Source: Cloeon dipterum (lineage: Eukaryota > Arthropoda > Insecta > Ephemeroptera > Baetidae). Taken from it: 64,000 nucleotides of DNA. A model generated the notes under the pieces. It saw nothing but the letters and a program-made list of their open reading frames with translations. It was not told where the DNA came from and did not search any database. Of the stretch, positions 12,577-53,245 are shown one piece after another; the stretch's first letter is position 1; each line of letters begins with the position of its first letter. The position numbers and the translations under genes are program-made. The stretch covers positions 11,770,501 to 11,834,500 of the forward strand of contig NC_088787.1 of the NCBI RefSeq assembly GCF_949628265.1. The letters are read 5' to 3'.

Positions 12577-15500
12577 TTACTTCCAAATGAGTATTGCGAT
12601 CATAATCACACCACTGACAAACAAGCCGGCGGCGCTGGCATCCAAAATATACATATTTTTATCGCAATGCCAGCAAAAGGTGGCACCTGGTTCATGACAC
12701 TCGCCACTGCAACGCCTACAAGAGGTGGCGCAAGGCTCGTGGCACTTCTTGCTGCAACTGTGTCCGCACTGCATCGGCAGGCCGCACTCTTCCTCGCAAT
12801 CTGAGTCAGGGCTCCAGTCACTGCAGACGATTTCTTTGCTGTGCCTGCCGCAGGAAAAAGTGACCACGCGCACCTCTGGGCAAGGTAAGCAAGGCAAGTT
12901 GCAGAGGAGTCTGCAGCGGTGGAGACAGGACTTGCACGTCCGGAGGCACGGCTCCCAACACTTTTCTTGGTGGAAATCGGCTTTTTCGTCTGGGTGAAAT
13001 TCGACATTACATATGTGACCGCAGTTTTTTGTTTTTCCGCAGCGTTTGTTTTCTTCAACCGATGCCGGCTGCTCGACAGTCTGATGCCCTGATCTGAGAG
13101 GCCCTTTGCACGTGTCCTCACTGCAAATCCGGTCTAACTTGTACCGCTCTTTTAATGAAACTAAATGTGTCTGCATTGGATACGCGGAGCACCTGAAATT
13201 TAATTATTTTTATTAAACAGGATGAGTAAACAATTTTTTTCTTGTGCCAAATATCTCACCAACGAAAAATCATAATAAATGGAAGAGGTTTAATTGTGCA
13301 TCAATAATAAAATGAGGTGAAATACCAAGTTTCAAAATTTACGGTGTTTTGAACAGGGGACAACACATGTGGAAAATGTATAAAAATTTGGCATATATAC
13401 AATTCGAAAATCTAAAATAGCCAAAATGCGAAATATACCCATACACATGGAACTAACTAGAATAAAAAAATTATGACTTATTAGTATTTTTTTAGATAAT
13501 CGCGAGGTAAAAATAAAAAACCTATTTGATCGGGTTGTAGAAATTTTCCACACTTTGATGGAAAAAAATCACATACTGTTAGAAAATTATTTTTACGAGT
13601 TGAAAATAGCCGTGGAGAATATGAGAAATGTTTTAGTTTCAATAATTTTTGGATTTGCTTTATCCTTGTTGATTTTTTTCACAAGGAACCAGAAAAATGC
13701 AATAAAAAACTGGATTATTTAAAAAAAATTGTTCAGGAAATAGACACATTAACTATTAAAGATCTAATTATTGAGTGAAGTTTCACACCCACCTGAGTTC
13801 CAAGGAATGACTCAAAGCGCCTTGTTCGATGAGAACCTTTTTCATTGAATTCCAGGTGCTGCTTTTGGTGGAGAGGGTTTTCATATTTCCCACAATAACC
13901 AGGGCATCCTTCGCTTTGGACAAGGCCACGCCGATCCTCTTTTCATCGTCCAGAAGTCCCAAGAACCCAAGAGGGTTGCTTCTTACGAGAGAAAGAATGA
14001 TGATTTTGTTCTCCCCGCCTTGATAATTGTCAACTGTTGCAGTTTCGATAGCCCTGAAGCTCTCAAACTCTGGCAAAAGGTCTTTCTTTAAAAGCTGCAA
14101 TTATGTACTTTTAAATAAAGCAAATTTGATAATCAAACAAAATTATTTACCTGAAAGATCATATAGGTCTGTGCCGAGTAGATGGTCAAGATAGTGATGT
14201 CCTCGGGAGGAATTCCTTGCGATACCAGGTACTTGCAAAGGTCAACTACGAAAAGGGCCTCTTTTTCATTTCTGTTGCTCCCACTCCAATGATTTGTAAG
14301 GGCCTGAGAGGATTCGTCAAATTCAGGAAGATCATCCTCTTCGATTTGATGGTCAACAAAAGACACTCGCTTTGTTAAAATTTTCAGCGGTGGCAGGTCC
14401 AGCACACTCGCGTCGTGCTCCATCTCAGGGTAAATTAGGGGTGAAATCAGCTTTGTCATCTCAGGCGCCATCCTGTGCTGCACCTGGAGCTGCTTCTGGT
14501 TGCTTCTCTTCACGAGCACCCTCTCAAAAAATGAGACATGCAGTTTATAAGCTGCTAAATCGGAGAACTCCAGTTTTGGAGTAAGCTGCTTGTGTCCACC
14601 TTTGAACGGAAAATTTAAATTTTAAAATATTAAATGATTTGATAAGGGCAGGTTTACCTATCATGATTAGGTGCTTGCATTTTTCGGTCAAACAGGCCAC
14701 CAACGTGGCCTCAAGAAGTTCTGGAGCGTCTTCAACAATTACTGAAACAAATTTAAGAAATGCGAACTAATTAATTTAACATTATATAGGATAGCCAAAA
14801 TGGATTTTCACTAAATCAGAATATTTTACTGTTTCTTGAACCTCCTGATGAGCACACTCGGGTTTGATTTCATAACAACGGCACCATTTTATAATAGGCT
14901 CCTAAGATTGGCATTATGAAAACTCAAAAATTTCGGAAAACGTACAAATTTTTCTAAAAAATGGTCAAATTTTGAAAAATCAAACATTTTTTAATTAACT
15001 TTTGATAACACTAAATCGATTGATGTTTAATATTTAATATTTTCTGGGAGTTTTCCACTTTTGGCAGAAGTGAACTTTTATAATTGGAAAATCGCGTTGA
15101 AAAAAACGGCTTGCGGGAAAGAATTAATAATTTTTCAGGAATTGTTACCGATACACACCAAGCATCTCAGAAAAAAAAAATTGAAAATTAGTAGTATAAC
15201 GGGAAAAAGTTGTTTCAAACCTATTTACATTGAATTTTTCAAGAAAACTGGTGCGTGCTGCGAAGAGGCAAAGATTCGGTACAATTAATAAATGAAAAAT
15301 TGACTCATTAAGTGTCACTTTCTTAACCTGAGAATTTAAAACTATATAATCAATTAAGCTTAAATTTAGATTTTGAAAAAATATATATAGCAGCATTTGC
15401 CTGGCATTTTTAAATCAAGTAACATCAACTCACCAATTTCACAGGAAACTTTGTCTTTGTACCTGCAATGCCATTCACACACCTTGGCCGCAGTCATCCC

Positions 15501-17202
15501 GATCACGTCCTGGTGGGCCATACGCTCATGAAAAGTTCCATCCTTCTTCTTGTAATTGTGTGAGTTCAGCTCAGCGAATTTCGATTTACTGCTGCCAACC
15601 CTGACCAACTTGTTCGTGAATTTCAGCAGTCCAAGGAGAAAGCGATCAAGCGAATGGTTTGTGAAGCTCAAGACCAAAATTGGCTTTGTCAGGTTCAGGG
15701 CAGCCCTGTTTTCGATCAGAATTTGCGCCAACTTCTGACCGACGTAGGTTTTTCCAGTTCCAGGCGGCCCCGTGATCAAGGCTAACTTCCTCGTCAGGGC
15801 GGATTGCAGGGTTGCCAGCTGTGACGTGTCGAGTCCGAGTTCAGAGGCCGCGGGCCAGGTGCTTGGGTCTGTGACGTACACTGACGTAAAATCTTTGTTT
15901 ACTCCCTTCACTGTTATCAATTTGTCGTCGAGTTGTGCCAAATACCGAGGGAGATCGCAGCGTATTGTTACATGGACGAAATTTTTATGAAAGGGTATCG
16001 TGTGTATGGTACTGCGTTGAAGAACTTGGAGTACCTGAAAGGATTATTTATCTAAGCATGATGAATTTTTTGTTGAAACAAGAACGGTCTTACGAATTTA
16101 TGTCTATCAAAGTTGCTTTCGCTGACGATCATGATATAATCTTTTTCATAGATATTCTCATCCTTGTAATGTGACGTGCAGAAATTGACGAACACTTCCG
16201 ATTGTTTTAAATATGACTCGCTTGAAAAGCTCACCGTGGAGAAAAGCAGGGTTTCAAAAGAGTTGCACGTGAAGCAAATGAGAGTGCCGGGACACAATCT
16301 TTTTCTGTAGTAATCCTCGCGGCTCATTCCCATTTTGCTAGGCAGGTTACGATTGATGAATCGCACTTTGACGCCTTTATCTCTTTCTTCGCCATCAGAC
16401 GGCTTTATGAATCTAGCGACCATGTACGAAGGTGATTTCAGGTATTCGTTGTGTATTAATGGTTTCACTAGTTTCCGCAGTGAACCCACTGTCTCTTCTC
16501 GCATCAGCCAAAAGTGAGTTTCAAGGTATTGTTCAAAATTCTTGTAGGGCTCGCAAAGGAATTTAGCTTTTAACGGTGCTTTTTCGTCTTCAACAACCTC
16601 ACTGTGCGTTGGGTAAATGCAACACTTTCTAAATTTCTTACTGAGCCGCTGCTGGTAAAAGAGTCATGACAATTGTTAGAAGGAATATAATTATGAGCTT
16701 TAGAACTTACCATGCTCCTCAATGGAGTGGCTTTCTGTGGTTTATTTTTCTCAGTTTCACGCTCTGAAAAAAGAAGGAAAAATTATGAATATCTTGTGTC
16801 CACGCTGAATTAAATACACCCCGTTAAAAACGCATTTGAAGAAAACCGGGGCATTCCCTTGTTTTAATTTACGTTTAAATGTTTTGGCTAACAACTGCAG
16901 TCCGATATCAGGGAATTATAATAATAACAGAACAGTAAAATTTTATACTGTTGTATTTTTACTGAATAATTTCATTGATTTTACTAATCCATGAAATTAG
17001 GGCCGAAACTATATAAAATGTATAAATATATGTTCAAAGAGGAATATCTGGTTTTTTGTCTATTACAAAAACGGAATCCAAGAGAGCATATATTTTAAAT
17101 ACTTGAAACACTTTCACAAAATGACCTGTCCGTCAAAAAGGAATTTGGCAGTAGGAATAAGGCACAAAAATGTTAAGAAACGTAAAACATGTCACCTTTC
17201 AT
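12577..17202 (-). CDS. ZNFX1: Gene B: ZNFX1-like protein with altered helicase motifs and a C-terminal membrane anchor
   Basis: Exons on the minus strand are 17202-17196 (tentative first exon), 16763-16711, 16651-16094, 16034-15434, 14741-14658, 14599-14151, 14094-13793 and 13192-12577, giving 889 residues. The P-loop GPPGTGKT is intact (about residue 295). Motif II is VEDAPELLEA instead of EEAAE, motif III is GGHKQLTP instead of GDHKQLRP, and motif VI is SKAKDALVIVGN with lysine in place of the conserved arginine. Motifs IV (QHRMAPE) and V (VDNYQGGEN) are kept, so B is intermediate between A/D and C/E/F/G. NFX1-type cysteine repeats follow. The last 25 residues form a hydrophobic helix (AAGLFVSGVIMIAILIW) ending in lysine, typical of a tail-anchored membrane protein. 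The exon 16763-16711 ends in ATG at the site where its paralogues start, so an N-terminal extension of 19 residues is gained if the tentative first exon is right. Confidence 0.8.
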
Positions 17203-18338: not shown

Positions 18339-21300
18339 TCAACACTGGCTGATCCTCTTTTGTCGTGTGCAACCACAGAATAAAACGGCTAACCTGCATC
18401 GCAAGCACCTTGTGTTACAATCGTTTTGGTGACAATTTTTCGTACATAAGTGTCCGCACCACATGGGCCTGTTGCAAACAGCCTTGCAAACGCCGCTGGC
18501 GGATTTCCAGTCTTTGCAGAGCACATCTTTGCTGTGCCTGCCGCAGGAATTGGTCAAGGTGCGTATTTCAAAGCAGTCAGGGTGGCATTGCCTGTAGCAC
18601 GGTAGTTTGCAGCGATGAAGACCAGCCTTGCACATTCGGAGGCACGGCTCAATACATCTTTCCCATATTTCATGCGATGAATTGTGAGCCTCGACAGGAG
18701 GGCAAACTACTTTGCATTTATGGCCGCAGCTGTTCACACCATAGCAGCGCTCTGCATACGAAAAAGTGATTCCAGAAACGCGACTTCCACTTGATTGGTT
18801 GGAGGGAGTCGCAATGTCGTTAAAAGAAACTCTCTTCACAGGCGTGGGAATTACCGGAAAAAAGTTTATCTCTGGTAAAGGAGGTGGTAAAGGTTTCTCA
18901 AGCAATTCCTGAGCTACCACTTGTGGCTGTGGTTGCTTCACAATTGGCTGGCGAGTTGATGCAGCCACTAGCGGAGCCGGGGGTGGCGGCTGTATGCGAT
19001 TCTTCAAGTTTTTCCCATTTTGATTAGTGTGCGAATTCATGCTGAAACTATTGGTGGCAGGCTCATTGCATATTTCACATGTTTCATGCGATGAATTGTG
19101 AGCCTTGCCAGGAGGGCAAACTACGCTGCATTTATGGCCGTAGCTCTTCACAACCTTGCAGCGCGCAGCATACGAATTAGTGCTTCCAGAAACGCTACTT
19201 CCACTTGAGGCATAACATTTTGATTGGTTGGAGGGAATTGTATCACCGTTGAATCTTATCTTCACAGGCATGGAAATTACCGGAAACTTTGGCATGTTAG
19301 TTTTGATCATCAGCGGAAATTGTTCTGAACTTTTGATTTTCTGAGAGGATAGCGTTGAATATCCGCTTGCATTAGAATCCTTTACAGAATTCTTAGCAGA
19401 AGAATCACTGCCGACCAACATCGGCGTTTGCTCCGTTAAAGATTTTTGAGGATACTCGCCGGGCTTTTGATGAGGGTTGTGCTTAACAGGAGAACAAGAG
19501 GGTGCAGTCAATGCTGGTGCCTGATGCGGTTTTTCGCAGCTATTTTTACTGCAAATCCACTCCGATTTGATGAGTTCTTCGTCAAAAGCAACTGCATGAG
19601 TCTTCGTAGGGTAGGTCGTGCACCTGAAGTTAGATATGGGGAATGTGTTATAAAACGTTCTCTTGCCAATTAAATTACAAGTTATTTTTCTGTCTTAGAT
19701 TTAAAAATGAAAAAAATCTAAAATTAAGTTTCATCTAACCTGAACTCCAGAAATCCATTCAGGGCATTTTGTTCCTTCAGGGACGACTCGATCGACTTCC
19801 AAGTAGGACAGCTTTTGGTGAGGGTTTGTATGTTCCCAACAATGATGAGAGCATTTTGGGCTTTACTTAAAGCCACGCCGATTCTGTTCTCCTTTTCCAG
19901 AAATCCCAAAGCTCCCCCGGAGTTGCTTCTCACAAGAGACAAAATTATGAATTTATTTTCGCCGCCTTGGAAATTGTCCACCGTTGTGACTTCGACGGTC
20001 ACCAATAACCCTTTGACCTTTGATTTTTCTTCCTTTATAAGCTATTAAAATATGCAATTATAATTTAACAATACGAGTTTTAAAACAAATAGTTCAAATG
20101 TACCTTTTTAATCAGGTCCAACTGATACGCGTAAGTGGTCAAAATAGTTATATCGAGCGGTGCCACTTTTTGCAAGAGCAAGTATTTACAGAGAGCCACC
20201 ACAAAAGATGCCTCCTGGTCATTCTTCTTGCTGTTTCCAGTCTTCCACTGTTTTTTCATAATTTGCTCTGGAGTGCGCACTTCAATTTCCTCCGGACTCT
20301 CAGGAAAATTGTGGGTGACGAAAGAAACTCGCTTTGTAAGCAATTTTAGCGCGGGCAAGCTCGTCGCACTTGCACCATGCTCCATCTTGGGGTAAATCAA
20401 TGGCGAAATTAGTTTTGTCATCTCAGGTGGCATCCTGTACTGAAATCGAAGCGGTTTCTGGCTCTCCCTGTTGTCCAACATCCTCTTGAAAAATGAGACG
20501 TTTAATTTAAATGATGCTAAATCAGGATTTTCTAGTTTTAGTTCAAGCTGCTTTAGCCCTCCTTTTAAAATAAGTATTTAATTTAATTAGTTCTTGTTCG
20601 CATATTTTTTACACGCAAATATACCAATCATTATTAAATGTTGATAATTATTTGGCAAGCATGCAAACATCTGAGCATCAAACACCACAGCGGCATCCTC
20701 GACAATCACTGAAATGTTAAAAAAACGATCAAAAAATAAGAAGCTTAAAACTATTTTCATTTATCATACAGATCCTAATAATTGACCTGGCAATCAATAA
20801 AATAATTTAGCTTTTTTAGATTAAAATTCATTAAAAAGGGTTTAGATGGCCGAGGGAAAAATATGAAATTATTTAAGTGTTCGTCTAAGTTTAATAGGAT
20901 TTCAATTAAATCCGTATTTTAAGAAGTAAAGTGATAGAGTTGCGGCAGTCATGAAAAGATTTATTAGATTTGAAAGCCCTATTTTCATTGGAATATATTC
21001 CTTTTGAGCTTAAGTTTTAAATGACAAAATTTAACTAACCCACTTCGCAGCCAAGCGAATTGAGCTTTGGACGCCAATCTGATGCCCTGGACGCTGTCAT
21101 TCCAATTACGTCCTGGTATGCGAGACGATAGTACCATGATCCTTTCAGTTTGTTGTAGTTGTAGAGGTTCAGCTGCGAAAACTTGGACTGCTGGCCGATC
21201 CGCACAATATTGTCAGTAAAGTTCAATAATCCGAGAAGAAAGCGATCAAGCGAGTGATTTGTGCTGCTGATGACCAGAATAGGCCTTTTCAGGTTCAGAG

Positions 21301-22801
21301 CTGCCTTGTTTCCGATCAAGATTTGCGCCACTGTGAGGCCAACGTAGGTTTTTCCCGTTCCAGGTGGCCCAAGGATGAATGCCAGTTCCCTCGTCAGGGC
21401 GGCTTGTAGGCTGAACAGCTGCGACTCGTCCAGTCCGATTTCAGCGGCCGTAGGCCACGAATTCGGTTCCAAAAGCCGCACTGAATTAAAATCTTGATCT
21501 ACTCCTTTGATGGAAATGGTTTTGATGCCGTTCCTCATGTATTTAGGGAGTGCATCGCTTTTAGACACTTTAATGAAATATTGAGGAAAAGGGAAGTCGT
21601 TGTCGTCGGCAAGTTGAAGGGTTTTAAGAACCTGAAGGAAACAATATCTGATCAGTTTAGCTTACATTAATACGCAGTATTATGGATTCACTTTTTTGTT
21701 TGAATTGTGGGGGTTTTAAAATTACTTCTGCAGATTAATTGTATCTTTTCACGACAAAAAAGGCCTATCAATTAACTTAAATTTAATTTGATAAATACCT
21801 GCTCATATGCTCCAAAGAAGGTTTCACTCTCAATCATCATATATTCATTTTTGTAAATATCTTCCTTGCATTCAGAGGTCAACTTGACAAATACCACAGA
21901 CTCCTTGAAATAATTCTCTTGTCTGTGGCTAATTGTGGCAAAGATCAATGTTTTGAAGAGGTTGCAAGTAAAGCAAACTAGGGAGCCAAATTTTAAGATT
22001 TGCGATGATTTCTCCTTGACGGTCTCTCCATTAGAAATTCTACTGTCAGTGAAGCGAAGCTTTACACCTAGCTTTTTTACACTTGTGTCGACGGGTCTCA
22101 AGAATTTTGCCGTCATGTAGGAAGGCGAATCTTCGTCATTTCTTTTGATTTTAAGCTGGCTCACCACTTTCCGTAGCGGACCAACTACCTCCTCTCGCAT
22201 AAGCCAAAAGTGGGTTTCCAGATATTGTTGGACATTCTTGAAAGGTTTATCTACAATATTCTCTGATAAGGGTGCTACAACATTTCCAACAACTTCAGCG
22301 TATGTCGGATAAACGCTGCAAGCTCTGAAATCCTTGCTGGGCTCCTAAAAAATCAATAAATTTCTTGCAAAATATGAGCTGCGATAAATATCCTAGCAAA
22401 TTTTTGAATATCTATATCATGCAGTTGTATGTATTGCAGTTATGTGCCCGCTATATCCTTCAGTCATGCAGAGAGTGAGTCAAATTGATTTAGAAACTCT
22501 ACTCCAGTAAAAATAAGTTTAAAATATTGTATTAAAAATTATTTACATATAATTATTAAGTAAAAGTATTTTTACTTTATATGAAATAGCTAAATCAAAA
22601 AGTATAATAAAATTTTAATATATATTATTCATTTTATTCTAGTTGTCCACATTTGGCTCATTGGCCTTTTCTGAACATATCATAGAGTGAGTACTTTCCA
22701 TGGCACATTTATTATTAATCAGAAACAAAAATTTGAAATTTTTAGTCTGATCACTAATCATTAACCTTAAAAAGTCAATTAGCATACTTAAAACTCACCA
22801 T
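18339..22801 (-). CDS. ZNFX1: Gene C: ZNFX1-like protein with altered helicase motifs and duplicated zinc-finger block
   Basis: Exons on the minus strand are 22801-22799 (ATG only), 22344-21799, 21631-21040, 20708-20625, 20561-20104, 20041-19740 and 19623-18339, giving 1089 residues, the longest of the cluster. The P-loop GPPGTGKT is intact. Motif II is VEDAAVVFDA, motif III GGLKQLELK, motif IV QYRMPPE, motif V VDNFQGGEN and motif VI SKAQNALIIVGN, so the motif III aspartate and motif VI arginine are lost. The last exon holds a proline-rich linker (PPPPAPLVAA) between two copies of a PSNQS...SYA.RC...GHKC..VCPP block. In the first copy a key cysteine of CGHKC has become tyrosine (YGHKC), so it is degenerate. 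A full run of NFX1-type repeats follows the second copy. By family it would be a cytoplasmic RNA-binding defence protein; catalytic activity is doubtful. Confidence 0.83.
18640..19290 (-). repeat. Intragenic duplication in the last exon of gene C
   Basis: Roughly 18640-18866 and 19055-19290 are diverged direct copies. They share the 17-mer CATGCGATGAATTGTGA (18671 and 19084), the GGAATTACCGGAAA/GAAATTACCGGAAA word and the encoded PSNQS and AHNSSHE peptides. The duplication added about 135 codons together with the proline-rich linker. Confidence 0.65.
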
Positions 22802-24322: not shown

Positions 24323-27300
24323 TCAATCAGTGCGATTGAGCGTCAAATCATTACAATTTTCAACAATCAAATCAAGCTGGCAAGCCTGGCACGGGGAACA
24401 GCTTTCGAAGCACTTCTTCTGACACTCATGTCCGCAATCCAGCTCTTTAAGACAACGTTCATTGCATTCGTCCTCAACATCTTCATGGCATTGCTTGAGG
24501 AGGATGTGGCCACAGTTTTGCTTGACACCCACCTTTTAAATAAAAAATTGACATGCAATCAACCAAATTAATCAACTTAATAGAAGAGAGAAAATCAGGT
24601 CAATTTAGCAAAAAAATAAAAATGAATTGCTAGTAAAAAAATCATTTTAAAATATTTTTACCAAAAGATAAATGAGCTTAAAAGGAAATTTCTGGGATGT
24701 GTCCAAATTGAACTTACTTTGACTTCACACAGGCCGCATTCCTCTGAACACAGCTTTGGACAAATGTGATCCTTGCGGCACTTCTTGCTCAGCTTAGTGC
24801 ATGGCTTTTGGCAAACCATATCAGGCAGCTCATCATCATTTTCCACTTCAATAGTGTGTACTCTGCACGGGAGCAAGATTTCGCACTTCTTGCCGCTAAC
24901 GATGTGGCAGTTCAAGGTACAGGGATGCATTTCCTCTTCACCATAACGCAGGATGCAAGGTTCAGGGCACTCATCTTCTGGGCAAACGATATGGCAAATG
25001 TCCTGGCAAGGGTGGCCGCAACCAGGCGTCTTCACGCATGGCTGGTCGCAGCCCCCGTGTGGAGCCAGCGTATAGAAATCTTCTGCATCTTGCACTTTGA
25101 ATGTATGGCTGGGGTGAGACTCGCACCTAAAGAAAATAATTTCTTAAGTAAAACTAAAGTGATGTGTGTTCATTTATATTAGAATTTAATAAACTAAACT
25201 GATTTAAGCAGGGTTTTTAACACATAAATTTTATATAAATAAATTCTTGATTTCCTTTTTTTTCTACCAGCGTCATTGTATTTTTAAGACCATCGCCTTG
25301 TGGTGTACAAGCACTTCAATCTAAAAATCCTGTATATAAGAAAGAGATGGCGACTTTATGGGCACAAATGATATCGGTTTTAAAAGAACATTTGAATTGA
25401 TATGGGAGAAGGTATTGGTAAAGTGGAAAAACGGATTATAAAGAAACTAAAATTTAACTTGAAATATTTTTATCACCTCAGGGTCAGTGAGTCCGAAATG
25501 GCATCCTGGTTTTCAAGCGTGTGCCTGATGGAATCCCAGAGGTGACTTCTGGATGACAGACAGTCCATGTTTCCGACCATGACAAGTCCATTCTTGGCTC
25601 GGGACAGTGCGACGCACACCCTGTTTTCCTTGGCTAAATATCCAATGTTTCCACTCTCGTTGCTTCTTACAAGAGACAGAAGGATGATATTGCTTTCCTC
25701 GCCCTGGTAGTCGTCTACCACAGCTACTCTAACCTTCTTTAATGCTTTAGCCACCTCTGATTTGTCCGATTTATCCATGCGAATCAACTGGAAAGCGAAA
25801 GTGAAATTAAGTATTAAGTTAATAATAAATTGCGGTTTTACTTGTCTGATCAAATCAACTTGTCCATTGTAGGTTGTTAAAATTGTGATATCCTCTGAAG
25901 TGTAGCCGATTTGATACAGGAGGTGCTTGCAGAGCGCGACCAAAAACTCTGCTTCGAATTGGTTGCGCTTACTGGTGCTCAATTTCACCTGTTGGAAATA
26001 AAAGTATAAAATGCAACCAATTCGCTACTACAGATAAACAAAAAGGATAATATATTGATAATAATTACCTTTGACTCCAGATTTTCATGGGTGACAAAGG
26101 AGACTCTCTTCAGCAGACTTTTCAGCTGAGGCTTGTGGTGGACGCTTTCATGGTTTTGCAAATTCTCATAGATCAGCGGTACGATGAGCTGAGAAATTTC
26201 CGGTGCCATACGATGCTGGACCTGAAGGGTGCAACATTTTTCCCTGTTGATCACCATTCTTTCAAACAGGGAAATGTGCAGATTGAGTTTCTCCATATCA
26301 TACTCGGCAACTTTGGGACGCAGCTGTTTGTGGTCACCTAAACAGGCATCAAGTATTTCAAAGCTTATTTACTTTCTTAATTACGGTCTCACGTACCAAT
26401 CAAAATCAAATGCTGCAGTTTTTCTGAGAGACAGGCAATAATGTGAGCTTCCAGGACTTCTGCCGCTTCTTCTACAATCACTGCAATTGAAGGGAGATGT
26501 TAGGTATAAGCTATTTGAATGAAGAGCTGTATTGAATATAATTTAAAGCAGAGGAAATAAATAACAATTTTACAAGAGAAGAAACATGTATACTGTATAC
26601 ATGAGCTATTATTTTAGAGGTGAAAATGATAACACCTACCCACTTGGCAACCAATGCCATCTAATTCTGATTTCATTCTAGCAGCACCAGTCGTTGTCAT
26701 TCCAATGACATCCTGGTTGGCGAGACTAACACCAAGCTTATTACTGGAGTTGTATTTATCCAGCTCCCTGCACTTGGACTGGCCCCCGACTCTAACAAGT
26801 TTATCAGTAAATTTCAGCATTCCAACTAAAAACTGGTCCAGAGCGTGATTGGTCATGCAGACTACAAGGATTGGAGTCCGCCTTTTTAAGGCAATTTTGT
26901 TTGAGAGAAGGATTTCGGCAATCTTGAGGGCCATGAACGTTTTCCCTGTTCCAGGTGGCCCCTGAATGACGGCCAATTCGGCCGTTAGGGCGGTCTTCAA
27001 AGCAACAAGCTGAGACGCATTCAGGCCTAGCTCTGCGGCGGTGGGCCAGCTATCCAAGTTGGTCACGTTGAATATAAATTGTTGGTCCACACCGCTAACC
27101 TCAATAGGCATGCTGTAGCAGTTCAGATACTGGGGTGGGTGATCTTCTTTGATCACATCAACAAAGTACTTCTTGAATGGAACCTTTTTGGGATCCGTGG
27201 AATTCAAAGCAGAGAGCACCTACAAACATTAGGTTAAATTGATTACCACTGCTAGGCAACAAATTGAAGACAAAGCTCTATAATTATAAAGTCCTATAGA

Positions 27301-28038
27301 TTGTTTTCTGACATAATATATGATTAATGATTGGTGAAATTAAAGGTTTTAATAAAAGTTAAACTAACAATCATTCACTAAAGGCAATAAAATTAATAGA
27401 GCTTAATTTTTTTTAATCAAGATAAGCAATAACATTTGCAATAATTGATGATGAAATATTACATCAATTTAAGACACATAACGAAACGCATTACTCACAT
27501 GCAAGTAAGGTGCGAAGAAAGCTTCGCACTCAACCATTGTGAATGTTTCATCAAGGGGCACGTCAGGCTCATTCCAAAAACGCAAACTAATGCGAGTCTC
27601 GCAAGAGCGAAATTCTCTAAAGACGATAGTGGCTAACTTGAGAGAGCGGAATGAGTCATTGGAGAAGCAAAGCAGTGAACCAGGCAAGAACATTTTGAAC
27701 CGGTCCTTCTCAGAATAATTCCTTTGGTCCGGGACACACGCCATAGGGATGCAACTTCTTTTTCCCATGCGTTTCTCTCCAATCATCACTCTCGGGTGAA
27801 TTTTAACTTGCGATGATTCAAAGGTAGAGTCATGTGTGCGATGGCTACGTAACCATTCTCGATATTCTTCGATCCCTTTTCTCAGGGGCGAGACAAAGTC
27901 TTCCCTCATGAGCCAGAAGAGAGTTTTCAGATACTGGTCCTGGCTCTCGTAGCTCCCATTGATGATATTTGGGGATATCTTCTCTTTCTTTCCCTGCACA
28001 ACCTCCTCGAAGGTTGGGTACACCGAGCCTAAGCGATC
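24323..28038 (-). CDS. ZNFX1: Gene D: ZNFX1-like NFX1-type zinc-finger SF1 helicase with intact motifs
   Basis: Exons on the minus strand are 28038-27499, 27219-26640, 26480-26397, 26337-26069, 25988-25842, 25787-25477, 25126-24718 and 24532-24323, giving 849 residues plus a missing start. The exon borders coincide with those of gene A, its closest relative here. Motifs are canonical: GPPGTGKT, VEEAAEVLEAH, GDHKQLRP, QHRMAPE, VDDYQGEESN and VALSRAKNGLVMVGN. NFX1-type finger repeats follow (CGHPCQDICH, CGHECQKKC). Gene A's 53-residue zinc-finger exon (11960-12118) has no counterpart, because only a 185-base intron lies at that place. The start codon was not found with confidence. An ATG|GTAAAG at 29658-29656 is a candidate for the start-codon exon seen in the paralogues. 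Expected role: ATP-dependent RNA helicase or sensor in antiviral or small-RNA defence. Confidence 0.83.
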
Positions 28039-36400: not shown

Positions 36401-36973
36401 CCATTCAGTGTAAAGGATTTTTCAGCTCTAGGCTCCACCTTCCCAGAGGCTGCCTCAGGAAATGGCCAGGTTTCCAGAACAGTCAAGCAAACACCGCAAG
36501 ATGCGACTGCAAACCCGGTTCCCTCTGTTAAAAACAAAAATTTGTATGTTTTGACCAGAAAACGCTGCTTGGTGCTGAAAAGCTGCGGCCACAAATGCAG
36601 CTTTGTTTGCACTACTGGCGAGGCTCACAGTTCAATGCATGAAAGAAGGGATATATGCAATGAGCCGTGCCCTCGAAGGTGTAAGGCCGGTCTTCACCGG
36701 TGCAAACAGCTGTGCCACATGTATTGCGGGCCTTGCTTGGAAACACGCACTGTGACCAATACCTGCGGCAGGCACCACAAAGATGTGCTCTGCAAAGACT
36801 GGAAACCCGCCAGTGGCGTTTGCGAGGCTGTCTGCAACAGGACTATGCGTTGCGGACATAAATGTACAAAGACTTGTCACCTCAACAACTGTAGCAAGTC
36901 GTGCTGGAGGTGCATATTTACCCGCGTATTTCTCTTTGGTTGTGTTTCAAGAAGGAGAGCTAACAGAAGATGA
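33467..36973 (+). CDS. ZNFX1: Gene E: ZNFX1-like protein with altered helicase motifs
   Basis: Exons are 33467-33469, 33732-34277, 34341-34932, 35115-35198, 35268-35725, 35789-36093 and 36190-36973, giving 923 residues. After the YPTYDEVVG and HFWLMREEVVGPLR blocks come GPPGTGKT (about residue 271), VEDASVIFDA in motif II, GGEKLLQPK in motif III, QYRMPPE, VDNFQGGEN, and SKAQNALIIVGN in motif VI. Relative to A and D, the second motif II glutamate is aspartate, the motif III aspartate and glutamine are lost, and the motif VI arginine is lysine. The last exon has a serine-rich linker and then NFX1-type repeats (CGHKCSFVC, CGHKCTKTC). It ends with a hydrophobic stretch (IFTRVFLFGCV) and a basic tail. 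By family it is a defence-related RNA-binding protein; ATP hydrolysis is questionable. Confidence 0.85.
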
Positions 36974-38933: not shown

Positions 38934-41900
38934 TTAATCATGGGGCAAATTTGCATAGAAGCGCCAAAATCTCTGAGGCATGATCACCTTTTTGATGTCT
39001 TGAAGATGATTGTATTTGGCGCGCTTAATGGGAATTCTGTCTTGGTAAAGGTTTCCTAACTGCTGGTCATTGATCGTGAAAGCTTTCCGCTTTCTACGCA
39101 ACTCTTTCCACTCTTCGTTGAGGGTTTTTTTGTATAACACCTGTCCATTGGGTGCATATCGCAGGGCTCGGATGTCCGTTACAACACCATCTGAAGGTCT
39201 GATGGTTGTGAAGTGTTTGAGCTTGGTGAAATCCTTAAAGAAACAATACTTCAATCTATGTACCACAAAGGCGTCGTTTGGATTCTTCTTAGCCAAAACG
39301 ATGCCCTTGACCAAGTCACGTGGAACAAACAATGAATGTTGCCTTCGTAGGCGCCTCTCGATCATGCTGTGAGCAGAGTCCACGCTCATCTGTGTGTGCC
39401 CTGGCTCTAGATAGTAATGTTGAATCTCAATTTTGTTCAACACAGCCCATTCGAGGAGCATGTTTGAGAGCACAAAATTTCGATTTTGGGCGCTGCAACC
39501 ATCAGAGAAAATTACTACAAGTTCTAGTGATGGGTACTTCTCCTTCAACTTATTGAGGTATTCTTGCAAGATTGACGCAAACACGCTTGCCGTCAGGCCC
39601 CCATCCGTTTCCGACCAAAAGAAGCAGTCCACGCTTCCATCGACCAAATTTTTTGCCGTGTAGTTGTGATTGGCGAGTCTTGTCCTGTAGTAAAGGATGT
39701 TTGCGTTGTGCTTTGGCAGCGTCATGCAAGCCTCTAAATCTACCTGCACAACAATCAGCTTGCCTTGTCTCTCATCTGTCTTGGCCTCACTCAGGAGGCG
39801 CTTCAAATTTTCTCTGGCGGCACTCTTCCTTTCCAGATGTTCTTCAAACAGTTTGTCTTCTTCAATGGGTAGTTCCTTTCCCTGAGTCTTAGCAGCTTGA
39901 ACTAAAAAGACATATTATTGTAAAATTAATAAATTCTTCAAAAAATTAATACTGAAGAATACACAAATATCTGAGATTGCCTAATAAATTGACTGATTTG
40001 AAAATATAATAATAAATGTGCATTTCACCTCTTGACTTGTGCTTTTCACAGGTGTTGCAAAGATCCTTTTTGGGCCTCCACAATTTGACCTTCTTTCGGT
40101 CCATCTCTTCTGTAAATGCAGTACGACCAAACGGTGTAAAGCCATTCTCCTGGCAAAATTTGAGGTAGACCCTTAAAGTTAAAACAGAATTTACTTGCTA
40201 TTAATGTTTAAATGAATTTTATGTACTTATGCAACTGATATTTGGTATCAATCCAAGCATCCAAGGTGATGTAGCCATTCACACCATTGTCATTCAAATC
40301 CTCTGAGTTGCAGATATAAGTGTTTCCCTCGTGTGCGGCGCGGGCGTAGTGGCTTTCCATTCTTGGAAGCTTCTCAAAAAAGGAATCCAAGCCTTCCTTG
40401 TCCGGTTTCTTCCTTGACACAGCTTGTTGTGGCACTTGCACACTTGGCTTTTCATTGGTCAAGGTCCATCTCCTCACTGTTCTAACGGGCACCCCAACGC
40501 AGGATGAAAAAAGATCCTTGCAAATTCTCAAAGTTTTGTTTGTTTGTGGGTGGCGTAAATAATAAGCTCGCTCTTGACCCCGTTCAGACTTTGTGATGTG
40601 GATAGAAGACTTCACAAAAATTTGTTGAGCTTCTTTGGTAGGGTGATTTTGTCTGTGATCTGCATGGAACTGTGTGATGTAGAGGTCGTTGAACTCCGAA
40701 CATTTCATGATTTGTGGATGCTTCTGAAAGTTGCACATCTTGCCTGCAGAGATTTTCTTCACAATAGTTTGCTTCCTTCCATCTGGGGTTTTCGTTGTGG
40801 TTCCTTCATAGGCTTTTCCAGCATGCCTATTAGCTTTGTTGAGCGTCTTCTTAAAAGACTGCTTCCATGCACGTCTTTTTACTTCACAAAACGTGATTTT
40901 CTCACATTCTAAGTTATCTTGCGCACTGGTGTCCAGGCCAGCATCATTCTCCTCGCCAACAACTGGAATTTGAAAAATTGTATTTTAGTTTTTACCACAG
41001 GAAAATCACAACGTAAGAGAGATGAGTAAAAATTCATTTCTAAATCTAGTGCTAGCAACCGACAGTAAAAACGTCTTGCTGCCAACAAGATACATAAAAT
41101 TTCAAGGAATTTAATAATATTTGCAGCCATAATCTATAAAAATATTTTTGCAAACCTTGCTCGTGGAGTGCGTGGGCTTCGGTAAAAGCAACATTTTGAT
41201 TTTCAAACAGAGGGGTGCCTGGGCCAAGGTAATTTGAGAGCATGCTGCTGTCCTGGCCACCATCATTGTCGCTCCTTGAACTTGACTCGCTAACTTGCAC
41301 TGCAATTTGAAAAATTGTATTTTAGTTTTTACCACAGGAAAATCACAACGTAAGAGAGATGAGTAAAAATTCATTTCTAAATCTAGTGCTAGCAACCGAC
41401 AGTAAAAACGTCTTGCTGCCAACAAGATACATAAAATTTCAAGGAATTTAATAATATTTGCAGCCATAATCTATAAAAATATTTTTGCAAACCTTGCTCG
41501 TGGAGTGCGTGGGCTTCGGTAAAAGCAACATTTTGATTTTCAAACAGAGGGGTGCCTGGGCCAAGGTAATTTGAGAGCATGCTGCTGTCCTGGCCACCAT
41601 CATTGTCGCTCCTTGAACTTGACTCGCTAACTTGCACTGCAATTTGAAAAATTGTATTTTAGTTTTTACCACAGGAAAATCACAACGTAAGAGAGATGAG
41701 TAAAAATTCATTTCTAAATCTAGTGCTAGCAACCGACAGTAAAAACGTCTTGCTACCAAAAAGATACATTAAATTGCAAGGAATTTAATTATATTTGCAG
41801 CCATAATCTATAAAAATATTTGCACACAACTCTGTATTATATATTATAGCTGTGAAAACTAGGTAAATTCAATGTTCTAACACTGCGGTAATTAAGATAT

Positions 41901-42710: not shown

Positions 42711-42802
42711 TGGGCCAATTTTACTGTTGGTAAAAAATGTTTTGGGCCATTCGCTACAACAGCAACAATGATAGTTGGGCCAATTCGCCGCGGCACGAAC
42801 GA
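42711..42802 (-). repeat. Right terminal inverted repeat of transposon 2
   Basis: This is the inverted partner of 38159-38250. It ends ...GGCACGAACGA and is followed by TATT. Confidence 0.92.
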
Positions 42803-44981: not shown

Positions 44982-47676
44982 ATGGTAAGTTTCTAACTTT
45001 TATTTTCAAACGTTGACGAAAATATTGAGGCGCATCGTCGCCCAGCCATTATTGAAGCTCGCTCTCAAGTCAAGATCAAATTTGTTTATTTTTTAATTTC
45101 AGCAGCCAAATGAGAACTTCAGAGCTTGCAGCATTTACCCGACGTACGCTGAAATTATCGGGAATGTTAGAGCACCGTTAAAAGAAAACGTCGTCGACGG
45201 ACCTTTTGAGAGTGTCGAACAATACTTGGAAACGCACTTTTGGCTGATGCGAGAGGAAGTCGTTGGTCCACTGCGGAAAAAAGTGAACCAAATAAAATAC
45301 AACAGAGGAAACGTGGAATGTCCTCCATACATGAAAGCTAAATTCCTGAGGCCGAAAGAAGAAAGAAAAAATGTAAAAGGAGTAAGGGTTTGCTTCACTG
45401 AAAATGGAGTTTCAAACAAAGACACCGACGAGGAAAAATCGAAAATTCTGAAACTTGGATCACTGGTCTGCTTCACGTGCAACTCTTTTAAAACGCTTCT
45501 CTTCGCCAAAATTAGCTACAGAGACGAAAAGCATATCAAGAAGTCGCAGGTGTTTGTTGAGTTCACCAAAAAACTCAAGGAAGACATTTTTAAAAAAGAA
45601 TATATAATGATTGAAAGCGAAACCTTCTTTTGGCCTTATGAACATGTAAGCAAAAAAATTATTGCGATAATATCTAATAAAATTAATTAATTGTAAATTA
45701 CTTTCAGGTGCTTAAAGCCCTTCAACGCACCGAAGACTGCGACTTTCCTTTTCCTCAATATTTCATTGGAGTGTCAAAAAGCGATGAACTTCCAAAATAC
45801 ATGAGGGACAGCAGCAAAACCATTTCCATCGAAGGAGTAGATCAAGATTTTAATTCAGTGCGGCTTTTGGAACCGAATTCGTGGCCTACGGCCGCTGAAA
45901 TCGGACTGGACGAGTCGCAGCTGATTAGCCTACAGGCCGCCCTGACGAGGGAACTGACATTCATCCTGGGGCCACCTGGAACGGGAAAAACCTACGTTGG
46001 CCTGACAGTGGCGCAAATCTTGATCGAAAACAAGGCAGCTCTGAACCTGAAAAAGCCTATTCTGGTCATCAGCAGCACCAATCACTCGCTCGATCGCTTC
46101 CTTATTGAATTATTAAATTTAACCGACAATTTTGTGCGGATCGGCCAGCAGTCCAAGTTTCCGCAGCTGAACCCTTACAACTACAGCAAACTGAAAGGAA
46201 CATGGTCTGAGCGCCTCGCATGCCAGGATGTAATTGGAATGACTGTTTCAAAAGCTTCCGAGTGGCGACCAAAGCTCAACGCGCTTGGCTGTGAAGTTGG
46301 TTAGTTTTTTTGTATATATTTGAAATAAAATAAAAAAGAGTAAGGCCAACTGTGAAATATAGCCAAGCTTTTTAAAGCGTAAATTAACCATCTCTTTTAT
46401 ATTTTAATATTTTGCTACTTTGCTTAAATTTAAATAAAATTCTCTACCCCATTTTTAGTCATCGTCGAAGATGCCTCTGTCTTATTTGATGCTCAGCTGT
46501 TCGCATGCTTGCCCAAGAACTGCCAGCACCTTGTTATGATCGGTAATAATTATTTTTTGAATGGAAATAGTTTACAAATATGACAGAATCCATTTAAATT
46601 TTAGGTGGAGAAAAGCTTCTGCAACCAAAATTGAAAAATCCTGATTTAGCATCGTTTAATTTAAACGTCTCATTTTTCAAGAGGATGTTGGACAACAGGG
46701 AGAGCCAGAAGCCGCTTTGATTTCAGTACAGGATGCCACCTGAGATGACAAAGTTAATTGCGCCATTGATTTACCCCAAGATGGAGCACGATGCGAGTGC
46801 GATGAGCTTGCCCGCGCTGAAATTGCTTACAAAGCGAGTTTCTTTCGTCACTCACAATCATCTAGAGAGTCCAGAGGAAATTGAGGAGCGCACTGCACCA
46901 GAGCAAAATATGAAAAAACAGTGGAAGACTGGAAAGAGCAAGAAGAATGACCAGGAGGCGTCTTTTACGGTTGCTCTCTGCAAGTATTTGCTCTTGCAAA
47001 AAGTGGCACCGCTCGACGTAACTATTTTGACCACTTACTCGTGTCAGTCGGAACTGATTAAAAAGGTACAACAATTTTTTGGAAACCCTTTTTCAGTTTT
47101 AATTATGAATGCGTATTTTTTATAGCTTATAAAGGAAGACAAATCAAAGGCCGCCGGGTTGGCGAGCGTCCAAATCGCAACAGTAGACAATTTCCAAGGC
47201 GGCGAAAATAAATTCATCATTTTGTCTCTTGTGAGGAGCAACTCCAGTGGATCTTTGGGATTTCTGGAGGAAGAGCACAGAATCGGTGTGGCTTTGAGCA
47301 AAGCTCAAAACGCCCTCATCATCGTTGGAAACATGGCAACCCTATCGTCCAGAAGCAGTATTTGGCGGTCAATTAGACAAATGCTCGATGACCAAGATTC
47401 CTTTGGCAGTAGACTGGAACTCAGGTTGGAATATTTTTTTTTTGTATTTTTAAAGTTCATGCTTTAATAGACCCATTTATGTAAAAATGATATGACCTGA
47501 TGAAAATATTTTCTTTTTTTAGATGCACGGCCTACCCAACGGGCAAGCACTTAGTCACTTTGGAGGAGCTGGACAAATTTGAGCGGATTTGCAGTGAGAG
47601 TAGCTGCACAAATCCACGTCAACCTGAACAGCCGAGTGTGCTTCATAATTCCCCCGCACCCACCGGGGACAAGTAA
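44982..47676 (+). pseudogene. ZNFX1: Gene F: ZNFX1-like pseudogene (nonsense codon, zinc fingers deleted)
   Basis: Exons equivalent to E and G are 44982-44984, 45103-45645, 45708-46299, 46459-46542, 46605-47065, 47126-47424 and 47523-47676. All phases close, but TGA at 46718-46720 interrupts codon 446. E and G have the arginine codon CGA there, just before QYRMPPE, so a single C-to-T change explains it. The last exon ends after the linker (SVLHNSPAPTGDK) and has no NFX1 repeats. Downstream bases (TAGCAAGAAGTACCACAGACC) resemble the last finger of G, which points to an internal deletion. The P-loop and the altered motifs II, III and VI (VEDASVLFDA, GGEKLLQPK, SKAQNALIIVGN) match E. A truncated protein of 445 residues with the P-loop could still be made. 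The promoter looks intact. Confidence 0.82.
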
Positions 47677-49168: not shown

Positions 49169-50231
49169 GTAAGAGTTTAATCTCAATTTTTCTTATTCAT
49201 TATATTACCCTATTATTTTTTGCAAGATAGTCAAAAAGCAGCTAATTTTAATTTAATCTGCAGACACTTTTGGGTTAAAACTGATCAGAATTGCTGGTAT
49301 TATTTCCACAGCAAAGTTTTGGACGGCAGATGTGTACGATTATTTTAGCACTTTAAACAAATCAAGAGAACTTGAAAACTTGAAAAGTGCGCGTCAGAGA
49401 CTGCTCTGTTTTTGTTCGAATGCGAGAGTGGGGAAACACCAGTTTTACCTCAAGGTCTTAGACTCTACTTACTACGTGCTTTAAACCTCCGCATAGACGA
49501 TTCTTTGGGTTATTTTTCATCAGAGTGGAAAAGTACCAGATTTACGCCTTATTATCTTAATGTCTTTTATTAGATAAAGAGACCCACTTATAAGGAACTG
49601 TTTTTAATTTAATTTTTATCGCGCGCTATCTATTACTTTCAACAAACCCTTGAAAATCAGATATGATTATTCAGACTATTGATGTTTCAGAAATTTTCAA
49701 GTGATGAAGGCGTCACTGTCTCGATCCGTATCTGTGCATTTATATTTTTAATGTTTTCCCAGCACAGCAGGATTGATGTTTATTGATGTTAAAGTGCGCT
49801 TATCTAATCGCATCAATGAGGTGAACGACTGATAGATTATAGCGAATTATATTCACGAATCAAATACAAACAATAATTATTATAGCTTTTTGGCAGCTCA
49901 ATATGGCTTTGTGTCTTCTTGCACACCGGCTCTTATTTGCTACTGCCATGGAGTGCACCAGCAAATTAAGCGCATTGTGTAAATATAAAATATTTAAAGA
50001 TAATAGGATTTCGAAAATATATTCATTTATTACTTATTAATTCCAATCTAAAACTTTTTAAATAACTGGATTTCCTTTTATTTACCCGTAGAATATAAAA
50101 TTTCCCTGTCTCGTTTTCTGTTGAATTGATTATAAAGTATTTTAAATATCCCTCGTGTTTCAGCTATCATAGCAGGCTAACATAGATATCAACGACATTA
50201 ACTGACTGACAGCAGATTTTCATAAAAAAAC

Positions 50232-53200
50232 ATGGCAAGTTTATTTTATTTACTTGAATTATTTGGTGTTTTTTCAAGGCCGAAGTATTACTTGAAGCTT
50301 ATACAAAATTCATTCTTTTTTGCTTAATTATAGGAGCCAAATCAGGACTTCGGAGCTTGTAGCATTTACCCGACGTACGCAGAAGTTGTCGGTGACGTTA
50401 AAGCACCATTAAAAGCAAACGTCGTTGACGGACCTTTCGAGAATGTCGAACAATTCTTGGAAACGCACTTTTGGCTGATGAGAGAGGAGGTCGTTGGTCC
50501 ACTGCGGAAAAAAGTGAACCAAATAAAACGCAACAGGGGAAACGTGGAATGTCCTCCCTACATGAAAGCCAAATTCCTCAGGCCGAATGCAAAAAATGAA
50601 AAATTAAAAGGAGTGAAGGTTTCCTTTACTGAAAACGGAGTATCGAACGAAGATTCCACAGGGGAAAAATCGCAAAGTCTAAAACATGGCTCACTAGTCT
50701 GCTTCACTTGCAACTCTTTTGAAACACTGCTTTTTGCCACAATCAGCAATAGAGACGAAAAGTACATCAAGAAGTCGCAGGTGTTTGTCGAGTTCACCAA
50801 AAAGTCCAAGGAAGACATTTTTAATAATGAATATATCATGATTGAAAGCGAAACCTTCTTTGGTCCATATGAACATGTAAGCAGAAAAATTATTGAGATA
50901 ATAAAATAAATATTCAATGAATTTAAATTACTTTCAGGTACTTAAAGCCCTTCAACATACCGAAAACTGCGACTTTCCTTTTCCTCAATATTTCATTGAA
51001 GTGTCAAAAAGCGATGCACTCCCTAAATACATGAGGAACAGCATCAAAACCATTTCCATCGAAGGAGTAGATCAAGATTTTAATTCAGTGCGGCTTTTGG
51101 AACCGAATTCGTGGCCTACGGCCGCTGAAATCGGACTGGACGAGTCGCAGCTGATTAGCCTACAGGCCGCCCTGACGAGGGAACTGGCATTCATCCTTGG
51201 GCCACCTGGAACGGGAAAAACCTACGTAGGCCTCACAGTGGCGCAAATCTTGATCGAAAACAAGGCAGCTCTGAACCTGAAAAAGCCTATTCTGGTCATC
51301 AGCAGCACCAATCACTCGCTCGATCGCTTCCTTATTGAATTATTAAATTTAACCGACAATTTTGTGCGGATCGGCCAGCAGTCCAAGTTTCCACAGCTGA
51401 ACCCCTACAATTACAATAAACTGGAAGGAACATGGTTTGAGCGCCTCGCATACCAGGACGTAATTGGGATGACTGCTACTAAAGCGTCCGAGTGGCGTCC
51501 AAAGCTCAACGCGCTTGGCTGTGAAGTCGGTTAGTAATCAATTTGTATAATTATAATAATTCACAAAAACATTTTGCGACATTAAAAAAAATTCGACATC
51601 CTCAAAATTTTGTCTTTGTGCCTAAATTAAAACATCTTTCAACCTTTTGCAGTTATTGTCGAAGATTCGACCGTCTTATTTGATGCTCAGCTAGTTGCAT
51701 GCTTGTCAAAGAACTGTCAGCACCTCATTATGATCGGTAATTATTTTGAAACACAAAAAGATTCAAAAATTAGTACATATATTTTTTTAAGGTGGAGAAA
51801 AGCAGCTGCAACCAAAACTGGAGGACCCTGATTTAGCATCATTAAATCTGAACGTTTCGTTTTTCAAGAGGATGTTGGACAACAGGGAGAGCCAGAAGCC
51901 GCTTCGATTTCAGTACAGGATGCCACCTGAGATGACAAAGCTAATTTCTCCATTGATTTATCCTGAAATGAAGCATGACTCGAGCATGTTGAGCTTGCAT
52001 GCGCCAGAATTACTCACCAAGCGAGTATCTTTCGTCACCCACAATTATCCTGAGAGTCCGGAGGAAATTGAAGTGCGCACACCAGAGCAAAATATAAAAC
52101 AGTGGAAGACGGGAAACAGCAAGAAGAATGACCAGGAGGCGTCTTTCGTGGTGGCTCTCTGCAAGTATTTGCTCTTACAGAAAGTGGCACCGCTCGACAT
52201 TACTATTTTGACTACTTACTCGTGTCAGTCGGCCACGATTAAAAAGGTAAAGTAAAGCTATTTTTTGGAAACCCTTTTCAGTTAAATTATGAACGCACAT
52301 TTTTTACAGCTTATAAAGGAAGAAAAGTCAAAGGCCGCAGGTTTGGCGACCGTCGAAGTCGCAACAGTGGACAATTTCCAAGGAGGCGAAAATAAATTCA
52401 TCATTCTGTCTCTTGTGAGGAGCAACTCCTGTGGGGCTTTGGGATTTCTGGATGAGGAGCACAGAATCGGCGTGGCTTTAAGTAAAGCCCAAAACACCCT
52501 TATTATCGTTGGAAACATGGCAACCCTATCGTCCAAAAGCAGCATTTGGCGGTCAATTAGACAAACGCTTGATGAACAAGATGCCCTTAACAGTTGGCTG
52601 GAAATCAGGTTGGAATTCATTTAGATTTTTTTATCACGGGCAATTTATCTAGAAATAATATGACCTTGATAAAACAATTACCTTTTTTATTTTAGATGCA
52701 CGACCTACCCAACGGGCAAGCACCTGGTCTTTTTGGAGGAGCTGGACAAATTTGAGCGGATTTGCAGTGAGAGTGGCTGCACAGATCCTCATCGACCTCC
52801 GCAACCTAGCGTGCTTCCTAATTTGCCTGCAGCCACTGTGGACAATTATTCATATGCAAGACGATTGATCAGCACGCACTGCGGAAAGCGTAAAAGCTGT
52901 GGGCACATCTGCAGAGTCGTTTGCCCTCCTGATGATGATCACACCTTGCATAGAGAAATATGTTTTGAGCAGTGCCTACGATTGTGCAGGGCTGGTCTTC
53001 ATCAGTGTCAACGTCAGTGCAACGTGCCATGCAATCCTTGCCTTAAAACACGACAGGTGACATTTTCCTGCAGAAGACACAGCAAAACAGTTGTCTGCAA
53101 AGACTGGAATCCTCAATCTCTTTGTGAGGCGCCTTGTAACAGGCGGATGCAATGCGGACACCAATGCAGCAAGAAGTGCCACGAACCATGTGACGCTGTG

Positions 53201-53245
53201 TGCCAAGCTTGGTTTATTTGTATAATCAGAAAATTGTTCACCTGA
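50232..53245 (+). CDS. ZNFX1: Gene G: ZNFX1-like protein with altered helicase motifs
   Basis: Exons are 50232-50234 (ATG), 50334-50876, 50938-51529, 51653-51736, 51792-52246, 52310-52608 and 52696-53245, giving 841 residues. The first intron begins GCAAGT rather than GTAAGT, so it is a GC-AG intron directly after the start codon. GPPGTGKT lies at about residues 270-277. Motif II is VEDSTVLFDA, motif III GGEKQLQPK, motif IV QYRMPPE, motif V VDNFQGGEN and motif VI SKAQNTLIIVGN, so the arginine finger is absent as in B, C, E and F. One run of NFX1-type repeats (CGHICRVVC, CGHQCSKKC) ends the protein, with a short hydrophobic tail (AWFICIIRKLF). It is the intact sister of pseudogene F. Confidence 0.85.

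Follow-up and report, generated by a model that had tools for sequence, protein, structure and literature searches.

Stepwise change of catalytic motifs in RZ-less ZNFX1-like genes of the mayfly Cloeon dipterum: candidate motorless helicases in a tandem array

Introduction

Can an RNA helicase of superfamily 1 (SF1) lose its motor residue by residue without being discarded? The question is raised by a window of 64 kb, the whole stretch of DNA analyzed here (C2:11770501-11834500, in an assembly of 190 Mb and 10 contigs), in the genome of the mayfly Cloeon dipterum. The window carries seven genes resembling ZNFX1: A, on the plus strand, B, C and D, on the minus strand, and E, F and G, on the plus strand. 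A preliminary description of this array had proposed that five of its members, B, C, E, F and G, lost catalytic residues of helicase motifs II, III and VI in a coordinated manner, and that they are kept as RNA clamps that bind ATP. Catalytically inactive helicase paralogues and pseudo-ATPases under selection retain Walker A and have their hydrolysis residues changed; here, by contrast, each stage of the loss persists as a gene of its own within a single SF1B family. No mention of mayfly ZNFX1 paralogues, or of a naturally ATPase-degenerate ZNFX1, was found in the titles and opening lines of abstracts searched, most of the subscription literature lying outside that search. With a confidence a little above even, we favor the view that the five genes are stepwise-eroded, hydrolysis-impaired ZNFX1 paralogues which lack the RZ finger and are still used in a non-catalytic way.

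Results

Three catalytic residues that are intact in A (8323-12385, plus strand) and D (24362-28023, minus) are replaced in all five of B (12577-16618, minus), C (18339-22314, minus), E (33762-36973, plus), F (45133-47616, plus) and G (50364-53245, plus). The second residue of motif II is Glu (GAG/GAA) in A (10110-10112) and D (26469-26467), and Asp (GAC/GAT) in B (14730-14728), C (20697-20695), E (35126-35128), F (46470-46472) and G (51664-51666). In motif III, the Asp (GAC) of A (10254-10256) and D (26335-26333) is Gly (GGA/GGG) in B (14597-14595), C (20559-20557), E (35270-35272), F (46607-46609) and G (51794-51796), and in motif VI the Arg (CGA) of A (10949-10951) and D (25601-25599) is Lys (AAA) in B (13917-13915), C (19864-19862), E (35963-35965), F (47300-47302) and G (52484-52486). 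Judged by the canonical residues of an active SF1 RNA helicase in motifs II, III and VI, A and D are intact and the five, which we refer to as lossy, are not. The motif strings given for the seven genes in the preliminary description are all present, and the losses in motifs III and VI hold by codon in each of the five, but its motif II was misaligned: where A and D read VI(I/V)EEAAE, the lossy copies read VIVEDxxx, with VEDA pairing with VEEA and the first Glu retained. "VED(A/S)" is a single conservative Glu to Asp change at the second acidic residue. The Gln of motif III is retained in B, C and G, and is Leu in E and F only. Motifs Ia and Ic are likewise altered in the lossy copies, which keep the Lys of motif I, the Arg of motif IV and the Gln and Gly of motif V.

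The genes were modeled by spliced protein-to-DNA alignment, and the introns of all models are of the GT-AG type. Public predictions bear out our models for A (its core identical to P0003), D (contained in P0001), the core of C (P0121) and E (P0030), and in part for B (C-terminal half, P0125) and F (up to a stop codon, P0123). D is 100% identical to a C. dipterum protein named NFX1-type zinc finger-containing protein 1-like; with A, a canonical, RZ-less ZNFX1-like gene that lies ahead of the interval in which it had been placed (12577-53245), it serves as a control. No public protein 100% identical to G is found among the matches listed, its best counterpart being a fused model, P0229, from a second C. 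dipterum assembly. Long open frames are present in B, C, E and G. F is broken by an in-frame TGA at 46718-46720, upstream of motifs V and VI, where E and G have CGA; its public model (445 aa) stops at that TGA, and its alignable tail stops early. Likely start codons lie at 50232-50234 in G, 44982-44984 in F and 16713 (minus strand) in B, each ATG closing its own exon. The letters directly after it are GTAAGT in F and B. In G they are GCAAGT and may open a GC-AG intron, which may be the reason why the matches listed hold no exact public model of G.

Are such residues found elsewhere? From three homology searches (the best 120 of 2755, of 145 and of 1241 matches) we collected 327 proteins, and statistics were taken on 252 of these, all 20 mayfly rows and the rows gapped in motifs I, II, III, V or VI being excluded. 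Among these complete non-mayfly homologues listed, the motif II Glu is kept in 251, the motif III Asp in 251 and the motif VI Arg in 250; all three are kept in 248, one is lost in four and two are lost in none. Neither Lys in motif VI nor Asp at the second position of motif II occurs in any of the 252, and the result was no different in an earlier alignment of 228 proteins. At the first motif II position, 220 of the homologues carry Glu and 32 carry Asp. The residue pattern is thus exceptional within the homologues examined. The lossy copies also depart from the family more widely: of 76 columns that are at least 95% invariant in the 220 homologues in which the first motif II residue is Glu, the canonical Cloeon genes depart at 0-5, and B at 13, C at 17 and E, F and G at 19 each.

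A search of the whole genome for the ZNFX1 domain (PF25396) recovered at least 12 loci, namely all seven window genes and five others, for which spliced models were also made: L009 (C1:12.486M), L011 (C2:11.735M) and the pair L020 and L021 (C3:23.25M), all canonical, and L017 (C2:23642800-23648800, at C2:23.646M), a lossy locus about 12 Mb from the window. The tally is six canonical (A, D, L009, L011, L020 and L021) and six lossy genes (B, C, E, F, G and L017). L017 (protein P0008, whose cluster represents nine member sequences) reads GAPGTGKT in Walker A, EDAA in motif II, GDENQL in motif III and SKAM in motif VI, and departs at 13 of the 76 invariant columns. The RZ finger (PF20173) has one match in the genome (C1:12480326-12480490), downstream of L009 on the same strand. 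L009 alone among the 12 loci adjoins such a match and is therefore likely to be a full ZNFX1. No RZ match is present in the window in a six-frame search, which an intron-split finger could escape; as far as such a search can see, the window genes are RZ-less duplicates.

The order in which the residues were replaced can be read from the phylogeny. In a maximum-likelihood tree, one lossy clade (support 100/99) comprises B, C, E, F, G, L017 and two proteins of Neocloeon triangulifer, P0005 and P0006; within it, L017 groups with the five window copies (90/88), which form a group of their own (100/100) with B branching first. When all motif columns were masked the supports for these three groups were 99/98, 89/88 and 100/100. 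The clade as an artifact of shared motif letters is rejected by the persistence of the grouping in the masked tree, and five independent losses are rejected by both trees. The Neocloeon proteins, which depart at 9 and 12 of the invariant columns, have Lys in motif VI and Gly in motif V (QGEE to QGGE), with canonical motifs II (VEEAA) and III (GDHKQL). Asp in motif II is found in L017 and the five window copies, and Gly in motif III, together with Arg in motif Ia, in the five only. The replacements are fixed: Lys in motif VI and Gly in motif V in 8/8 lossy rows, Asp in motif II in 6/6 and Gly in motif III in 5/5. One fewer intron after motif III than in A, D and L017 is likewise a state common to the five. 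On these trees each of the three changes maps to a node of its own, one after the other, and was then inherited, in one nested history. The loss was not "coordinated", as had been supposed, since intermediates survive in P0005/P0006 (motif VI only) and L017 (motifs VI and II); B, proposed earlier as a possible transitional form, is indeed the deepest branch of the five. Orthologues with canonical motifs, which were to speak against the earlier proposal, were found in part, in that relatives keep some of the motifs canonical.

The second C. dipterum assembly extends this picture. The halves of P0229 are nearest G (93.4%) and E (88.0%) and both read GGEKQL; the counterpart of C, P0122, reads GPPGSGKS, VIVDDAA and GGLKQL. 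The lossy state is therefore common to the second assembly, and the Leu of motif III in E is either recent or acquired from F, since both halves of P0229 have GGEKQL. Protein identity between the two assemblies, over unequal lengths, is 91.5% for D and 83.6% for C, in addition to the values for G and E above, and 75.9% between L011 and P0007 of the second assembly.

The ratio of nonsynonymous to synonymous substitution rates (dN/dS) was estimated with a codon model of the GY94 type (F3x4) on 12 Cloeon genes and 641 codons. It is 0.107 on canonical and 0.274 on lossy branches (2dlnL, twice the log-likelihood difference, 76.0; p=3e-18), constraint on the latter being about 2.5-3 times weaker. 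For the group of C, E, F and G it is 0.307, and a value of 1 is rejected (p=5e-42); without the Walker A tract described below it is 0.286, and the three subdomains tested gave 0.18-0.30, with 1 rejected for each. Copy by copy the values are 0.144 for G, the lowest of the five, 0.295 for C, 0.296 for F (an average that includes the time before its stop), 0.401 for B and 0.449 for E, each below 1 (likelihood-ratio tests, p from 2e-12 to 0.006). A branch model with many parameters, the "tips" model, was unstable (pooled canonical 0.031, A 0.529) and was not used. The lossy copies are relaxed yet constrained, and plain pseudogenes are rejected by dN/dS, with the exception of the broken F. That the five are not simply decaying is borne out, and the ratio near 1 that would have told against this was not observed, though the lossy value lies above the canonical one; to call the copies otherwise well conserved is an overstatement, given the weaker constraint and the 13-19 departures in 76 invariant columns, as against 0-5.

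These estimates also bear on an account that we hold to be somewhat unlikely, a relaxed birth and death in which redundant tandem copies slowly lose function and the ATP site changes without a selected role. It would accommodate the relaxation relative to canonical genes, the even spread of changes over conserved positions, the stop codon and early tail end of F, and P0122, with its changed Walker A and a public model from which motif Ia is absent; it is less easily squared with a dN/dS below 1 in each copy, with the long open frames of B, C, E and G, and with the persistence of the Lys clade in two genera, Lys being present in 8/8 rows (yet 27% of columns are invariant there).

The products would be folded. 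In Pfam scans of eight proteins, the SF1B core (PF13086/PF13087; AAA_11/AAA_12) was found in A, C, D, E and the C-terminal half of B. Cys/His-rich repeats are present in A, B, C, D, E and G, with no match to the NFX1 zinc finger in the Pfam scans. As to the N-terminal ARM-type region of the family, no more than about 25 residues precede the ZNFX1 domain in the public models of A, C, D, E and F. AlphaFold2 predicted E (P0030; alignment of 32 rows) with a mean predicted local distance difference test score (pLDDT) of 85.4 and a predicted template modeling score (pTM) of 0.85, and the canonical D (30 rows), which is longer and includes the Cys-rich tail, with 83.0 and 0.75. The top Foldseek match of both is the helicase core of ZNFX1 (9q9z), followed by yeast and human Upf1; the template modeling score to 9q9z is 0.82 for E (by query length) and 0.84 for D (by target length). 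The predicted fold of E is a confident one, but is no demonstration of activity; together with the dN/dS values it fits a putative, catalytically dead pseudo-helicase.

Two known systems help to place these proteins. The window genes resemble ZNFX1 and worm ZNFX-1 in PF25396, in the AAA_11/AAA_12 SF1B core and in the Cys/His-rich tail, 9q9z being the best PDB match by both sequence and fold. They differ in that D lacks a stretch of about 280 residues that 9q9z carries before motif Ic, in that the window has no RZ match, in that the ZNFX1 domain stands at or close to the beginning of the public models of A, C, D, E and F, and in the altered motifs II, III and VI of the lossy copies. UPF1/Nam7 shares the SF1B core, and its QYRM is retained in E; UPF1 itself reads Asp-Glu in motif II and has the motif VI Arg intact, and by alignment its DEST, GDHCQL and ALTRAR are EDAS, GGEKLL and ALSKAQ in E. 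We take the residue numbers of UPF1 to pair with mayfly residues motif by motif. In that protein, K498A, D636A and E637A are reported to be strongly ATPase-defective, with ATP binding defective in K498A only, Q665A to be almost without ATPase, and R703A and R865A to be defective in both ATP binding and hydrolysis (PMC6888360). The reported defects of E637A, Q665A and R865A support the view that the lossy copies are hydrolysis-impaired. We infer that ATP hydrolysis by the five would be strongly reduced, because three near-invariant catalytic positions changed together.

A slow rather than dead ATPase is a live alternative, Lys and Asp being conservative replacements fixed across deep lineages. 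In its stronger form, which we think unlikely, Lys in motif VI, Asp in motif II and Gly in motif III would make up a different working site, perhaps slower or with another preference for RNA or nucleotide. The retention of the motif I Lys, motif IV Arg and motif V Gln and Gly would agree with such a site, as would the conservative nature of the motif II and VI replacements; motif III, without Asp in any of the five and without Gln in E and F, and the absence of Lys in motif VI, of Asp in motif II or of any two of the three changes from the 252 complete non-mayfly homologues listed, would not.

Walker A is the motif on which the proposed clamp depends. GPPGTGKT is retained in 5/5 lossy copies of the window and in both Neocloeon members. 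In C, E, F and G it lies, with the Q motif, in a tract of low difference (51025-51345 as shown on G, plus strand), in which the four are alike at silent sites too. In columns 250-345, synonymous divergence (dS) between pairs of the four is 0.05-0.12, and over the other segments it ranges from 0.10 to 1.24, with one saturated estimate of 4.0 left out; in columns 250-345 it is 1.72 between the canonical A and D, and 0.76-0.90 between B and C, E or G. Silent polymorphic codons number 7/84 in the tract versus 139/562 elsewhere (Fisher p=4e-4), for a tract picked after its difference profile had been seen. A Sawyer-type run test for pairwise conversion was unconvincing, with p 0.086-0.55 in five of six pairs and p=0.048, uncorrected, for E and G. 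Because the tract holds few silent differences, it has probably been homogenized by gene conversion among C, E, F and G, and the four identical P-loops therefore count roughly as one.

A clamp or decoy loaded with ATP, which would leave it unhydrolyzed and hold RNA tightly, so blocking or titrating viral or host RNA, seems to us improbable. The low dS confounds the Walker A identity of C, E, F and G, although B keeps GPPGTGKT outside the homogenized tract, as do both Neocloeon proteins. L017 and P0122 have variants (GAPGTGKT and GPPGSGKS), motifs Ia and Ic are altered too, and the loss of ATP binding reported for UPF1 R865A (PMC6888360) is contrary to a clamp, as is the statement of a review that target mRNAs are not co-precipitated with helicase-null worm ZNFX-1 (PMC11959080). 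Reports that the P-loop NTPase domain of grouper ZNFX1 bound poly(I:C) on its own, and that MOV10 is antiviral without need of its ATPase (PMC12585102), would be compatible with a clamp, and with a non-catalytic role more generally. The clamp as it was first put forward is not supported.

Two features of the lossy proteins outside the helicase motifs were seen. The C-terminus of B (12577-12640, P0125) is hydrophobic, with a mean Kyte-Doolittle value of 2.42 over 18 residues followed by two more residues, a possible tail anchor; the C-terminal tails of A, C, D, L017, P0005 and P0004 have lower hydrophobicity scores. A long insertion rich in Pro and a Cys/His piece that is duplicated in part lie in the last exon of C (18339-19623), and E has a different insertion (36190-36937) near the same place.

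Discussion

The history that we favor for the lossy copies would start from a branch of the mayfly ZNFX1-like family without the RZ ubiquitin-ligase finger. Before the split of Cloeon and Neocloeon, Arg to Lys in motif VI and Glu to Gly in motif V would have been fixed; Glu to Asp in motif II would have followed in the Cloeon line, and Asp to Gly in motif III with Gln to Arg in motif Ia in the founder of the array. This founder would then have multiplied by tandem duplication, probable gene conversion keeping parts of C, E, F and G alike. The product would be a folded SF1 core with poor ATP hydrolysis, retained by a weaker purifying selection while copies such as F may be dying. According to a review, vertebrate ZNFX1 depends on ATP to recognize long single-stranded RNA, after which it serves as a ubiquitin ligase, ubiquitinating itself or RNA and forming large assemblies (PMC13270118). 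We conjecture that the lossy proteins are non-processive partners or competitors of the canonical A, D and L009, whether on RNA or inside their assemblies; a relative that lacks RZ and hydrolyzes poorly could sit on the RNA or in the assembly without setting it off.

Several observations weigh against the erosion of hydrolysis with continued non-catalytic use. Glu to Asp and Arg to Lys are conservative, so that slow or altered hydrolysis is possible, and the UPF1 data used for comparison come from Ala mutants, unlike the Asp and Lys present here. F has a stop codon. Support for the L017 node is moderate, and the first step is dated by two Neocloeon proteins only. At depth, dS is saturated, and the dN/dS fits assume a single tree, which gene conversion does not respect. 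Moreover, seven canonical mayfly proteins share 144 fixed positions, and at these the changes in the five copies show no enrichment in motifs (25/62 motif versus 33/82 other positions), and sites that switched and were fixed again lean weakly to motifs (4/5, 6/7 and 10/16; p=0.11, 0.025 and 0.08). A change targeted to the helicase motifs is not upheld by these counts; with changes equally dense inside and outside the motifs, general relaxation explains them as well as a targeted loss does.

What makes the locus of interest is that the stages of the loss survive as genes, with motif VI changed in Neocloeon, VI and II in L017, and VI, II and III in the five window copies, which may form a natural series for an SF1 helicase that loses its motor without being discarded. 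The lossy copies are candidate natural "motorless" helicases, and with their canonical sisters A and D close by, within the 64 kb of the window, the question of what ATP hydrolysis by ZNFX1 does can be put protein by protein. A wider proposal, that in baetid mayflies ZNFX1 was duplicated without its E3 finger, had its hydrolysis disabled residue by residue, and gave rise to a motorless, gene-converting tandem set which regulates the active ZNFX1 proteins, or competes with them, in antiviral RNA defense, is tentative and, as a whole, doubtful.

Neighboring genes and dispersed helicase loci

Proteins with DUF7869 (PF25273) are encoded beside the array (4076-4639, minus) and inside it (38937-39914, minus), with an ORF at 40211-40984 near the second; they are perhaps mobile elements. 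To the right of the array, the gene at 54706-58796 (plus) resembles by eye the meiotic helicase HFM1/MER3, with a sub-threshold HHH_5 match only, and that at 61251-62473 (minus) encodes an EamA-type transporter. PF13087 was additionally searched across the genome, and five dispersed loci, L012-L016 (C1:5.71M, C1:37.78M, C2:34.35M, C3:6.68M and C5:31.81M), gave AAA_12 matches of equal score. L012 combines an ORF like an SF1 helicase with one that resembles a tyrosine recombinase by eye, and the five may represent a family of transposons that carries a UPF1-like helicase.

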